Positions 20,463 through 24,267 of a stretch of DNA of 24,651 bases are shown piece after piece. Both the position numbers and the translations under genes were made by a program. How positions within the stretch are numbered: position 1 is the stretch's first letter; the number at the start of each line of letters is the position of its first letter. This stretch comes from a virus. The stretch spans positions 1-24,651 of IMG/VR virus record IMGVR_UViG_3300009610_000087; one strand, written 5' to 3'. The notes beneath the pieces were generated by a model. It did not search any database. It saw only the letters and a program-made list of their open reading frames with translations, and was not told the origin of the DNA.

Positions 20463-21155
20463 CTATTTTGATTCTCTTGGAGGATCGAATTTGAATTTAT
20501 CCGCACCAGAAAGCCAAGCATCGAAGACAGTAGACGTTACCCACCCGGATTTGCCGGGCCGCTGAGTATAATTTGATTGGTCGAAATCGTATTCGTGTTC
20601 TCGAAATATTCGTATTACTTCTTCTGCTGCTTTGATGGTGTTGTCTGTATAGGTGATTTGATGTTTGAGTCTGTCGATTTGATGCTCGATCACCTGTTTG
20701 ATTTCGCTAGGTTTATCTTTCTTCTTTTTGCCACGCTTCCATCGCTTCAGCATCTTCTGAAAACCTTTCAACTTCTTCTGGAAGGATGATTTGCTTTCAG
20801 ATAATTGATTCAGAACTTGAACCATACCAACATCCATATGTTTGGCGAGGTCCACCTTGTCGAGATCGTAACCTTGTTCCACTAATTGCTCAACTACCTG
20901 ATCCAGCGCCTGAGCAAGAATACCCATCACATCGTTGAAGGTATTGAATTGGGGTTCTTCTCCATACTCGTCGTATCGTTGCCTCTTCTCTGGATCGGAT
21001 AAAGTGCTGTAGGCAACTACAGCCCGCTCGAACACCTTTCGATCTCCACCACGATCAGGGTGATGCTGCTTTGCCATTTTGGAATACGCCTTTTCGATTT
21101 CTTCTGTTGTGGCAAGTTTAGAAACGCCCAGGAATTCATAGTGATCTTTTGACAT
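20463..21155 (-). CDS. J-domain (DnaJ-like) protein
   Basis: This 230-residue protein starts at ATG 21155 with AGGA upstream and one base after the exonuclease stop. Residues 4-66 are a J domain: DHYEFLGVSKLATTEEIEKAY, then the diagnostic HPD (32-34) and FERAVVAYSTLSDPEKRQRYD. J domains stimulate Hsp70 ATPases, and the HPD makes this plausible. There is no Gly/Phe linker, zinc-binding domain or client-binding domain as in DnaJ. The C-terminal part is basic and helical (KKLKGFQKMLKRWKRGKKKKDK), then an acidic helix, then TQRPGKSGW. It may recruit host DnaK to phage replication or repair complexes, but that is inference. Confidence 0.8.
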   Translation of the reverse strand: MSKDHYEFLGVSKLATTEEIEKAYSKMAKQHHPDRGGDRKVFERAVVAYSTLSDPEKRQRYDEYGEEPQFNTFNDVMGILAQALDQVVEQLVEQGYDLDKVDLAKHMDVGMVQVLNQLSESKSSFQKKLKGFQKMLKRWKRGKKKKDKPSEIKQVIEHQIDRLKHQITYTDNTIKAAEEVIRIFREHEYDFDQSNYTQRPGKSGWVTSTVFDAWLSGADKFKFDPPRESK

Positions 21156-21156
21156 A

Positions 21157-21984
21157 TTACCATCCTGAAAAGAGATGCCTAGATGCAGCAGATGGGTCGT
21201 GATCTGCCATTGAAGCCATCCCCAGCTTATCCATCAACTCCATCCATGCTTCTTTGGTTGGAGGTTTGTGTTCGGTTAGTTTGAATTTTTTAGTTTCTGG
21301 ATGGGGCAAAGCAACAAGTTCCATATTGATCTTGTATTGCTTACTGCGCACCCACTTATCAATCTCTGCATGTTGTATCTTATTACGAATCCATTTGATT
21401 GCAGTCTTCTCGCCGACCCCTTTAATGCCGGGGATATCGTCTGAGACGCAACCAGCTATGGCTTTCACTTGAATCCATTCGTGAGGACTTATGCAATACT
21501 CGCGCACGAACTTTTCTTTTGTCAAATACTGTTGTGATCTGGGCTGATAGATCGAGATTCGATTACTTAGTAACTGATACAAATCCTCGTCGCCTGAAAC
21601 AAGAATGGCGTCCTGATTCATGTTGAGATAGTCACAGGCTGACGCCATAATGTCATCTGCCTCCATCCCTTCTTGATAAAGGATGTTTGGGTAGCCTAGC
21701 TGTTCAAGATAATTCCGACGCAACGATTCAATTTGCTCTTTCATGACGCTTATAACTTCGCCTTTTTTAGGATCACGATTCTTTCGACGTGTGGATTTGT
21801 ACCAATCAAACTGATCTGATCGTCTGCTCTTGCCTAGATCGAATGCAAAGGCAGACAGATGCGTTCCAAACTTCTCTTGCACTTTGACGATCTCTCGGAA
21901 CACGCCGTACAAGACACCTGTAGGTCCGCCCTCATGGGATAGATCGCCAGTAGTGAACAAGGCACGATAAGCAAGATTGTACAT
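21157..21984 (-). CDS. 5'-3' exonuclease (FEN/PolA-like), N-terminally interrupted
   Basis: This ORF of 275 residues resembles the 5'-3' exonuclease of phages and PolA. It begins YNLAYRALFTTGDLSHEGG. The second metal Asp lies in AFDLGKSRR (D49). EADD is at 108-111, SGDED at 130-134 and the H3TH motif SDDIPGIKGVGEKTA at 181-195. Family members start VDGxxLAYR with a catalytic Asp; here the codon before ATG is GAC (Asp), three codons after an in-frame TGA. No start codon lies between, and no good ribosome-binding site is near. So the ORF as readable lacks that Asp. An HNH gene lies directly upstream, suggesting that the gene was split. Confidence 0.85.
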   Translation of the reverse strand: MYNLAYRALFTTGDLSHEGGPTGVLYGVFREIVKVQEKFGTHLSAFAFDLGKSRRSDQFDWYKSTRRKNRDPKKGEVISVMKEQIESLRRNYLEQLGYPNILYQEGMEADDIMASACDYLNMNQDAILVSGDEDLYQLLSNRISIYQPRSQQYLTKEKFVREYCISPHEWIQVKAIAGCVSDDIPGIKGVGEKTAIKWIRNKIQHAEIDKWVRSKQYKINMELVALPHPETKKFKLTEHKPPTKEAWMELMDKLGMASMADHDPSAASRHLFSGW

Positions 21985-22011
21985 GTCGAAAGATCAACCA
22001 CGTTTCTGTTT

Positions 22012-22608
22012 TCACGGTACGTGCCTCCATATCTCTTTAGAAATGATTTTGCCAATAAGTGCATGACACACATCAAAAAGCCGACTCAATTCAGATTTAG
22101 ACCATCTTCCTGTTTTCCACAATCGGCGAATTTGGTATATGGATTTTTCGTGCAGTTTACTATTCCAATGCTCTTCTCCAAAAGGCACCTTATGTCTGCC
22201 TTTGCTCATCATGTCGTTCGTGTTATCTTGTGCTGTGCCTATCCATAAATGATTGGGGTTGCAACATCTAGGATTATCACAATCATGAAGCACCCATTCA
22301 GTATCTTCCAGCCATCTACCTAGATGCAATATCATAGCAAATCTGCTGGTGCTTGTTGCAAAGGTTCTTCCTATGGAGAAAATCCCGCGACGCTTTGTGC
22401 CTTTCCAATTCCAACAATCATTAGGCTTGCCAATATTTACATTGGTCCAAAATCTACGAGCGATCCATTTATTCGTAGGCCAATTCTTTTGTTTTCCAAA
22501 GTCAGCGAAGCATTTCCTAGAACATAGTCTTGCTTTCTTGCGTACTTTGTTGGAATAGTATTGGAATTCTTTCCCACACCGCTCGCATACGGCAGATTCC
22601 CTAGGCAT
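22012..22608 (-). CDS. HNH homing endonuclease
   Basis: This 198-residue protein starts at ATG 22608, with GAGGAG five bases upstream. The N-terminus is a zinc finger (CERCGKEF, then a CSRKC pair). The HNH core reads DCWNWKG, then LHDCDNPRCCNPNHLWIGTAQDN, with the expected His and Asn ligands. The end is an HTH-like segment (SIYQIRRLWKTGRWSKSELSRLF) that should bind DNA, close to NUMOD-type modules. Together these indicate a complete, free-standing homing endonuclease. It sits at the 5' end of the exonuclease gene. It leaves almost no room for a group I intron core. The endonuclease probably cleaves the uninterrupted exonuclease allele. Confidence 0.85.
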   Translation of the reverse strand: MPRESAVCERCGKEFQYYSNKVRKKARLCSRKCFADFGKQKNWPTNKWIARRFWTNVNIGKPNDCWNWKGTKRRGIFSIGRTFATSTSRFAMILHLGRWLEDTEWVLHDCDNPRCCNPNHLWIGTAQDNTNDMMSKGRHKVPFGEEHWNSKLHEKSIYQIRRLWKTGRWSKSELSRLFDVCHALIGKIISKEIWRHVP

Positions 22609-22645
22609 GATTACTCCTCAGCCAAGTCTTAGTCTTCATCATCAT
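22601..22645 (-). pseudogene. Stranded start of the exonuclease gene
   Basis: Three tandem ATG codons (22645, 22642, 22639) follow AGAGGGG (22652-22646), an excellent ribosome-binding site. The frame reads MMMKTKTWLRSNHA and stops at 22601, inside the HNH gene. MKTKTWL resembles the N-terminal segment that precedes VDGxxLAYR in 5'-3' exonucleases; the continuation (FDMYNLAYR) lies beyond the HNH gene near 21985. This is probably the severed 5' end of that gene; the identity is inferred. Confidence 0.5.
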
Positions 22646-23066
22646 CCCCTCTGAAATCATCGGACTCCGCAGCAAATGCCTTTTTATCCTGCTCAGATAA
22701 AGGCTCGTCTTCCGCTTCCACTAAAAAGGCGCAGCTGTCTTTGTGCAATATGCCAGAGTCTAAAGACAGCACTCCGTACTTATGCTCATCATCTACCATC
22801 ACATGTTGTCCTTCATTGAAAAAGGATGCTCGTTTTCTTTTGCCTTTAGATACTGATTTCTCCATCAGCTTTTCACCGCAAATCACGCAGCGTTGGATCA
22901 CTCTTGTCTCTTCTTGATCGGCTTCAAAGTACAAACCGACAGCAGGACCGGCAAGATGTATCACTGGCATTTTCTTTTTCTCCGCTAGGTGTGCTAGAAT
23001 CTCGTAACGGAAGTATATTGCTTCAGCAAGAGATAGAACAAACTCTTGCAATTGTTTCTTAGTCAT
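22629..23066 (-). CDS. Small zinc-binding hypothetical protein
   Basis: This 145-residue protein starts at ATG 23066 in an ATGA overlap with the recombinase stop. After a helical N-terminus (KKQLQEFVLSLAEAIYFRY) it has CVICGEKL, a basic SKGKRKR stretch and an ILHKDSC segment. One CxxC plus HxxxxC or HxxC could form a treble-clef-like zinc site. The C-terminus is acidic (DDFRGDDDED). Its last codons overlap the strong ribosome-binding site and the ATG run of the severed exonuclease start. No family recognised. Confidence 0.55.
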   Translation of the reverse strand: MTKKQLQEFVLSLAEAIYFRYEILAHLAEKKKMPVIHLAGPAVGLYFEADQEETRVIQRCVICGEKLMEKSVSKGKRKRASFFNEGQHVMVDDEHKYGVLSLDSGILHKDSCAFLVEAEDEPLSEQDKKAFAAESDDFRGDDDED

Positions 23067-24157
23067 TCGTATTTGCTCTTTCGGTGAATTGATAACTGCT
23101 CGTCAATGGACTTCCAGACTTTCAGAACAAGCATTTGCAATTCACGCTCCATGCCACGCTTCTCGATCTTGCGAATCAGTTTGGATTTTGTCGTGGACAA
23201 GCCGAAGTCTTCTGCGTGGATGTTCGATCCTTTCTTACTCCAATGACCTCGCTCGATTAGAAAGTCAACGCACGATCCAACATCATCTATGCCGAACGAC
23301 CAATAGATTGGAACATCGACTTTCTTTTCTCGTCCGGTATGTCGAGACTTCTCAACTTTGATCCTGGCAATTATTCCTTGCTGTTCTCGGCTTTTCTTGC
23401 TTCCTATTTTGATATCCTTCTCAATGTCTTTTTTGATCGAGAGCCAGCATTCAATGTGGGCATAGAATTTCATTGCACGACCGCCGCCTCTAGTCTTCTG
23501 GTTTGGAATTAACCCTCCGACTTTATCGCGGGTCTGTGCTATGAAAACGACAATTGAACGTGTCTTGCGCAGCTTGCGTGGAATGGATCGAATCTTTCCG
23601 CTGTTGGCTTTGGCCTTGGCCATACCGTAAGAGCCGGTCGTTTCTTTGCCTTTGCGATGCGCTCGCTTCTCTTTGTCGAATTGCTCGATATCCTCTTCAG
23701 CGTCCAAGGCATCCATACTATCTAGTACATAGATGCATGGTTTCTTGGCGCTTAGAGCATCATCAAGATTGTAATAGAGTTCTTGTACTGTCTCGCTGTA
23801 TACCGGCTCGTCTCGTGTTCCAGCTGGTGGGCGGATTCGTTTTGCCATTTTGGAACCGAAGAATCGCTCCAGTTCCATCTTGGCACCGTTCTCCACATTG
23901 TCGTAGATCAGTTCGTAGTTGTCGAAGTGTTTGTTGTTGGCAGCCTCAGCCAAAGCAGTCAAACCTATCCATGTCTTGCCGGCTTGTGAATCTCCTACCA
24001 CCAATACATAATCGGACTTTGCTATCCCGCCTCGAATGCGTCCGGTCATGGCGAGATTGAGCAGAGTCGATCCTGTGGATAGCAAATCCTCAGCTTTGGT
24101 TACGTGTTTGGTTTCTTTTGATTTCATTGCTGCCTTTATTCGTTTTACAATGGACAT
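23063..24157 (-). CDS. RecA/UvsX/Sak4-like recombinase
   Basis: This protein has 364 residues from ATG 24157 (AGG nine bases upstream), overlapping the preceding small gene by 13 bases. A TTG start at 24202 would add 15 residues without a good ribosome-binding site. STGS lies at 27-30, Walker A GDSQAGKT at 55-62, Walker B IYVLDSMDAL around 133-141, and VFIAQTRDKVG at 195-204 resembles RecA motif/loop 2. A basic C-terminal stretch (KKSREQQG, then EKSRHTGREKK) may bind DNA. The protein should pair homologous DNA during phage recombination. Family is RecA-like; the choice between UvsX-type and Sak4-type is not settled. Confidence 0.85.
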   Translation of the reverse strand: MSIVKRIKAAMKSKETKHVTKAEDLLSTGSTLLNLAMTGRIRGGIAKSDYVLVVGDSQAGKTWIGLTALAEAANNKHFDNYELIYDNVENGAKMELERFFGSKMAKRIRPPAGTRDEPVYSETVQELYYNLDDALSAKKPCIYVLDSMDALDAEEDIEQFDKEKRAHRKGKETTGSYGMAKAKANSGKIRSIPRKLRKTRSIVVFIAQTRDKVGGLIPNQKTRGGGRAMKFYAHIECWLSIKKDIEKDIKIGSKKSREQQGIIARIKVEKSRHTGREKKVDVPIYWSFGIDDVGSCVDFLIERGHWSKKGSNIHAEDFGLSTTKSKLIRKIEKRGMERELQMLVLKVWKSIDEQLSIHRKSKYE

Positions 24158-24267
24158 TGCAGGCACCTGGATAGATTGATTCCTGGTGATAGTATTAGCC
24201 AAATCAGATTGGCGATTTCATCCTGCCAATCACCTTTCCAATCACAACACAAAGCAACAGCAGTCAT
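24145..24267 (-). CDS. Very small protein (40 aa) before the recombinase
   Basis: The frame starts at ATG 24267, overlapping the upstream stop (ATGA), with AAGGA six bases upstream, and ends at 24145. It reads MTAVALCCDWKGDWQDEIAN then a hydrophobic LIWLILSPG and RCLQCPL. It holds a CC and a CxxC pair. It overlaps the recombinase start, so it could couple its translation. I do not recognise it. Confidence 0.45.
   Translation of the reverse strand: MTAVALCCDWKGDWQDEIANLIWLILSPGINLSRCLQCPL

Follow-up and report, generated by a model that had tools for sequence, protein, structure and literature searches.

An HNH endonuclease gene next to a phage exonuclease gene whose 5' end is present twice

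How is a 5'-3' exonuclease made when the codon of its catalytic Asp lies ahead of the first in-frame ATG, and what part does the HNH gene directly upstream play in this? The question is raised by a locus of an uncultured phage, the IMG/VR virus record IMGVR_UViG_3300009610_000087, of which a stretch of 24,651 bases was analyzed, called the window below. A sister contig (IMGVR_UViG_3300027533_000667, 77,625 bases) matched the window from end to end, without gaps and with 4 mismatches. A first-pass annotation of the window had proposed that the HNH gene split the 5' end off the exonuclease gene. We find that the old exonuclease start is stranded upstream of the HNH gene and that the HNH gene is followed by a recoded copy of its first 9 codons, which has a separate ribosome-binding site. 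The proposal is therefore upheld in that the HNH gene appears to have entered the 5' end and left MMMKTKTWL as the stranded original start, and corrected in that the remaining gene is not simply start-less. The features involved are given below; the three ribosome-binding sites (AGAGGGG, GAGGAG, and GGAGG) were recognized from the sequence.

22646..22652, minus strand: AGAGGGG, Shine-Dalgarno sequence of the original exonuclease start, within the 3' end of a gene of unknown function
22601..22645, minus strand: stranded original exonuclease 5' end, MMMKTKTWL and then RSNHA*
22614..22619, minus strand: GAGGAG, ahead of the HNH gene and similar to a Shine-Dalgarno sequence
22012..22608, minus strand: HNH endonuclease gene, 198 amino acids, C-terminus ...IWRHVP*, Pfam HNH_3, PHROG 1872 (E 1.1e-22)
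22024..22028, minus strand: GGAGG, Shine-Dalgarno sequence of the replacement exonuclease start, in the HNH codons TGG AGG
21932..22015, minus strand: replacement exonuclease 5' end, GTG start, MKTETWLIF and then out of frame to TGA, 27 amino acids
21985..21994, minus strand: AUC UUU CGA C, where the frame is off by one base, a candidate site for a +1 slip from UUU to UUC; the sister contig has the same sequence
21157..21984, minus strand: 5'-3' exonuclease (FEN-like) body, 275 codons from the first in-frame ATG, Pfam 5_3_exonuc_N (E 2.2e-22) and 5_3_exonuc

The exonuclease open reading frame (ORF) begins at ATG 21984 with MYNLAYRALF, preceded in frame by TGA TCT TTC GAC, as the first-pass annotation had read it. 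The annotation had also placed the Asp codon before any start codon, which does not hold, as GTG 22015 with its GGAGG precedes it in the wrong frame. Between the HNH stop codon and ATG 21984, the strand reads GGAGG cacgtacc GTG AAA ACA GAA ACG TGG TTG ATC TTT CGA C ATG TAC, with GGAGG 8 nucleotides upstream of a GTG that overlaps the HNH stop codon as GTGA. The upstream copy, which had been noticed before at about 22645, reads AGAGGGG ATG ATG ATG AAG ACT AAG ACT TGG CTG, and its reading ends at a stop just beyond the HNH start codon. Aligned with GTG AAA ACA GAA ACG TGG TTG of the downstream copy, 6 of 7 residues (start codons taken as Met) and 15 of 22 bases are the same, and the differences are mostly silent ones at third positions. 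Among 73,962 six-frame 7-mers from 37 kb of the sister contig, MKTETWL was matched at 6 or more of its 7 residues by the two start copies alone. A nucleotide-level shuffle test of the duplication by itself was not significant (p ~0.12), an outcome to be expected of a recoded copy; the case for a duplication rests on the peptide scan and on relatives.

Relatives were gathered via the recombinase, which has the exonuclease nearby on many contigs, and a scan with the exonuclease brought more. Those free of an insert carry one start copy in a single frame of the form M-x-x-T-W-L-I-L-D, typical starts being MKRTWLILDVSNLCYRAFYTTG (L029), MPRTWLVFDCDYLCHRAFFSTG (L022), and MNKTWLILDCNYLCHRAKHSIG (L020). 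The TWL of the stranded copy matches relatives beginning with MKRTWLILD, MPRTWLVFD, and MNKTWLILD. Judged by the N-termini of relatives, both copies in the window are real exonuclease N-termini.

The Asp of the window exonuclease aligns with Taq Asp18, as the first-pass annotation had assigned it, and was found in 59 of 59 distinct relatives; homologues naturally starting without it, which the annotation had allowed for, were not among them. In a larger set, from which rows without the aligned Asp column were left out, Asp occupied that column in 114 distinct N-termini. The Asp-containing N-terminus is thus in frame across about 114 distinct relatives wherever alignable, with the window phage as the exception. 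The full acidic set of FEN enzymes is encoded in the DNA; Asp is reached after a +1 shift only, and the remaining acidic residues lie in the open ORF. A model of the L029 relative (predicted local distance difference test score, pLDDT, 87; predicted template modeling score, pTM, 0.84) matched the folds of T5 FEN, plastid exonuclease 1, ExoIX, and Taq, and residues 3-9, with Asp at the end, form its first strand (pLDDT of this block 92). Judged from this model, both the first strand and the Asp would be missing from a protein with MYNLAYR as its N-terminus. Reinitiation at ATG 21984 after the HNH gene would produce exactly this protein. Even with that ATG in frame and 28 bases past the HNH stop codon, we consider such a route very unlikely: the ATG has no Shine-Dalgarno sequence, GTG 22015 just upstream is a much better start, and the cost would be strand 1 together with an Asp that is invariant in relatives.

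Two further irregularities were noticed in exonuclease sequences. On the contig of a Deltaproteobacteria metagenome-assembled genome (L119:2141-3000), an exonuclease relative is split over two frames near profile position 109. Two of the four differences between the window and its sister contig (window positions 21193 and 21162) fall in the last 12 exonuclease codons, and one of them turns the final Trp into Arg.

The upstream gene is a complete HNH gene, as first described, with a Pfam HNH_3 score of 26.5 bits against a cut-off of 24.8 and PHROG matches to 1872, 6254, and 59. It combines an HNH domain with a DNA-binding region, as expected of a free-standing HNH homing endonuclease. The presence of an HNH gene varies among relatives, and a scan of viral contigs with the HNH protein returned the sister contig as the one match.

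Could the HNH region be removed from the transcript instead? Self-splicing of an intron, of group I or of another kind, had been considered as a way back to a normal N-terminus; a join of CT to A would restore the frame and fuse MMMKTKTWL with SFDMYNLAYR. HNH_3 endonucleases of phage ICP1 do reside in spliced introns (PMC10448857). The intron scan proposed with the first-pass annotation was negative: no Rfam intron family matched over 20500-23500 or 21900-22700, even with E values of up to 5 or 10 admitted. Splicing at this join would yield WLSFD and not a protein of the family; in all 59 distinct relatives, the residue two positions ahead of the Asp is L, I, V, F, A, or M, and in none is it Ser. 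Splicing would also leave unexplained a second copy of coding quality, MKTETWLIF with its GGAGG. Because no intron model matched and Ser would fall at this position, splicing is unlikely, and an intron joining the two pieces is rated as highly improbable. The ICP1 genes, considered as a model for the window, do not fit.

The same duplication was found in other phages. In contig L044 (L044:3952-4500), a stranded MNKKYLLLDCNERI* (MNKKYLLLDCN) is followed by an HNH-AP2 gene and then by GGTGG...ATG and MDKKWLLLDVNYLCHRA (MDKKWLLLDVN), in frame with the exonuclease. Its start copies are identical in 25 of 33 bases and 8 of 11 residues, and its HNH protein has no significant match to that of the window. 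In contig L177 (L177:39-1489), the HNH ORF itself opens with MKLRNLILIDAHNL, an in-frame fused exonuclease N-terminus (first 14 residues), continues into NUMOD4 and HNH_3 domains, and ends with VWTHVV*; the second exonuclease start (MKLKQFILHDTHSL, MKLKQFILHDTHSLCWRAF) overlaps the HNH stop codon as ATGA. This HNH protein is related to the one of the window (BLASTP 2e-9). In contig L166 (L166:2136-3030), a stranded MGRRWLILDVKPKREKCDG* (MGRRWLILDV) precedes three small ORFs without a Pfam match, none of them a recognizable HNH gene, and then MSRRWLVLDVSNLAY (MSRRWLVLDV), with 23 of 30 bases and 8 of 10 residues identical between the copies. The small ORFs are perhaps cargo, or mark a site whose endonuclease was lost.

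When the N-termini of 112 distinct exonucleases were scanned against their own upstream DNA, L166 scored 42 and L044 scored 36, and the downstream controls (n=112) reached at most 26. L177 scored inside the control range of the profile scan, and its case relies on the position of the copy, exactly where the HNH ORF begins. Four other duplication candidates, L136, L176, L146, and L110, were judged to be chance or artefact, the latter two by score and position only. The duplications of L044, L177, and L166 are independent and in frame. Counted in codons from the Asp, the last codon of the stranded copy is -3 in the window, +1 in L166, +2 in L044, and +4 in L177. All four junctions thus fall within about seven codons, a single short target zone where the gene is most conserved; the extra T of the window falls inside this zone.

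Two other HNH gene placements were seen. HNH-AP2-like genes lie between the recombinase and the exonuclease at L116:6053-6502 and L152:2282-2761, some 230-290 bases ahead of the exonuclease start. No stranded start accompanies them, and this is possibly a donor-type arrangement. In BUCT566, an HNH gene next to an exonuclease sits beside a Bet recombinase, and this case was set aside as another gene context.

What distinguishes the window from these phages is the frame. The MKTETWLIF frame runs one base off at ATC TTT CGA C (21994-21985), whose closing GAC codes for the catalytic Asp when read in the frame of the exonuclease, and skipping one base after UUU yields MKTETWLIF-DMYNLAYRALF. The sister contig carries the identical extra base (TTGATCTTTCGACATG), and the frame error is confined to these two near-identical phages, L044, L177, and L166 being in frame. 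If the base were a sequencing or assembly artefact, the real gene would be in frame like L044 and L177, which have the same architecture without the error. An assembly slip is nevertheless unlikely since two assemblies that differ at 4 sites both have the extra base. Runs of three T are not a usual source of short-read errors, and an artefact is accordingly given the lowest probability, as an extremely improbable explanation. Readthrough of TGA was also considered, as the HNH gene and the exonuclease share a frame with two TGA codons between them. It was rejected, since 56 of the 115 ORFs called on the sister contig terminate in TGA. DNA patterns designed for an in-frame allele matched unrelated genes only (L004, L005).

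The frame error could still be productive if the same 5'-end replacement were followed by programmed or selected +1 frameshifting at UUU_CGA, with the extra base possibly shielding the gene from its own HNH nuclease. The site allows pairing in both frames, and the UUU-to-UUC slip preserves Phe, which is seen at that position in some relatives. GTG 22015 has a strong ribosome-binding site and stop-start coupling. In bacteria, UUU_Ynn is reported to be a site at which +1 frameshifts occur with particular ease (PMC5009743), and UUU_CGU is the site of influenza PA-X with about 1% frameshifting (PMC3498833); the P-site slip ahead of a CGN codon would be the same. Unlike these sites, the motif of the window arises automatically from any one T added to TTC GAC, is conserved in no other lineage, and has no stimulator that could be found. 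The region was less structured than its shuffles (z = +2.0), with no 3' stimulatory RNA structure, and CGA is no rare A-site codon, being the commonest Arg codon of the phage. UUU_CGA is not avoided (6 observed, 5.3 expected), and UUU_CGN elsewhere in the phage genes shows no clear avoidance (12 observed, 16.4 expected). The common CGA codon, the lack of avoidance, and the absent 3' structure therefore give no mark of a specialized, efficient frameshift site. L044 and L177 require no shift at all. On these grounds, productive recoding is regarded as improbable, and we favor, as the probable state, an exonuclease that has for the most part been lost or is expressed poorly.

Several points weigh against this preference and the account built on it. 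The exonuclease body is otherwise intact with conserved acidic residues, which would be a coincidence in a long-dead gene; no second gene of this kind was found on the sister contig (77.6 kb), and every relative found keeps an exonuclease. These points, together with the presence of the allele in two assemblies, would suit a productive frameshift, though the two assemblies with the frame error may derive from related samples. The L177 contig stops 38 bases upstream of the HNH ORF. L166 has no HNH gene, and not every duplicated start need stem from homing.

With these points considered, the full account that we judge probable combines entry of the HNH gene, replacement of the 5' end, and an exonuclease that is either inactive or made by a +1 slip only. 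The duplication, the ribosome-binding sites, the frame error in two assemblies, and the recurrence in other phages are direct observations; from them we infer the order of events, the donor origin and direction of transfer, and cutting by the predicted endonuclease. A free-standing HNH homing-endonuclease gene would have entered the exonuclease gene at codons 7-8, near the catalytic Asp motif. A break near the Asp codon would have left the first codons of the recipient (MMMKTKTWL) on the left side, and the right side would have been repaired from a putative donor whose exonuclease start immediately follows the endonuclease gene. The exonuclease 5' end of this donor (GTG 22015, MKTETWLIF) would have arrived along with the HNH gene, which is the simplest source of the recoded start. 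The strong ribosome-binding site of the recipient now heads a 14-residue leftover and can probably feed the HNH gene, and the new exonuclease start seems to draw its ribosome-binding site from the last codons of the HNH gene, coupled to the HNH stop codon. Exonuclease with a full N-terminus would come only from ribosomes slipping +1 from UUU to UUC, presumably a minority at most; otherwise the gene would be inactive. More speculatively, the extra base may be a scar left by repair, and it may at the same time keep the HNH enzyme from cutting the restored target. That it is a resistance indel, tolerated since the shift-prone UUU_C lets +1 slippage make enough exonuclease, is a doubtful extension, to which we assign less weight than to productive recoding in general; it would correspond to the T4 gene 60 bypass on the scale of a single base and would tie homing endonucleases to ribosomal recoding.

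The closest described arrangement appears to be the fungal mitochondrial gene hybrid, known from atp6 of Allomyces macrogynus and from atp6, atp9, cox2, and nad3 of Glomus sp. (PMC3630166). In these hybrids, as in the window with its MMMKTKTWL and MKTETWLIF, an endonuclease ORF lies in a gene with a doubled terminus whose native copy is stranded, and the gene-attached copy has diverged in DNA (64-81% identity) with the protein conserved (PMC3630166). The locus is their mirror image at the N-terminus. The fungal cases concern the C-terminus, mitochondria, and LAGLIDADG or GIY-YIG enzymes, whereas those of the phages concern the N-terminus and HNH enzymes, with just 7-14 codons stranded and the start signals redistributed. 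The attached copy is in frame in L044, L177, and L166 and one base out in the window.

For a homing endonuclease joined with a frame break corrected by the ribosome, T4 gene 60 seems to be the nearest case. There, mobA and genes 39-60 likewise combine a homing endonuclease in a phage gene with an out-of-frame insert, which is suggested to act against cleavage and which the ribosome has to overcome (PMC5009743). Unlike the window, in which one base, a candidate recoding, and a replaced gene end are concerned, T4 gene 60 is split and bypasses 50 nucleotides at demonstrated efficiency. The nrdA/mobE locus of phage Aeh1, named as an analogue by the first-pass annotation, shares a free-standing HNH gene within a phage replication gene (PMC2988022). 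The analogy fails beyond this point: Aeh1 nrdA makes two complementary proteins (PMC2988022), and the window encodes no two complementary fragments, only a 14-residue leftover upstream and a downstream gene with its own start.

On the minus strand, the order of genes is UvsX-like recombinase, gene of unknown function, HNH gene, 5'-3' exonuclease, and DnaJ-domain gene, and no cultured phage matching the region was found. The neighbors are as follows.

23063..24202, minus strand: UvsX/RecA-like recombinase, PHROG 97, the usual neighbor of the exonuclease in relatives
22629..23066, minus strand: gene of unknown function upstream of the HNH gene, its 3' end overlapping the stranded exonuclease start
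20463..21155, minus strand: DnaJ-domain gene downstream of the exonuclease

Elsewhere, at 1387-2422 of the window, two Ala/Ser/Thr-rich ORFs of 327 and 315 amino acids overlap nearly fully on opposite strands, and it is likely that just one of them is real.

Homing endonuclease genes are known as residents of introns and of the spaces between genes, and as insertions by which phage genes are split. For a 5'-end replacement, in which the old ribosome-binding site feeds the endonuclease and a new one lies in its last codons, no earlier description was found in a search of open-access papers, so that one published elsewhere could have been missed. Going by the sequences compared here, HNH-linked replacement of the 5' end occurs at least three times within one exonuclease family, always at the Asp-coding site. 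Because of this recurrence, it has the look of an invasion route that can be taken repeatedly and not of an accident. Such genes would be reported as truncated or split by gene callers, and the one-base frame error in the window would offer a direct test case for the rescue of homing scars by ribosomal slippage.
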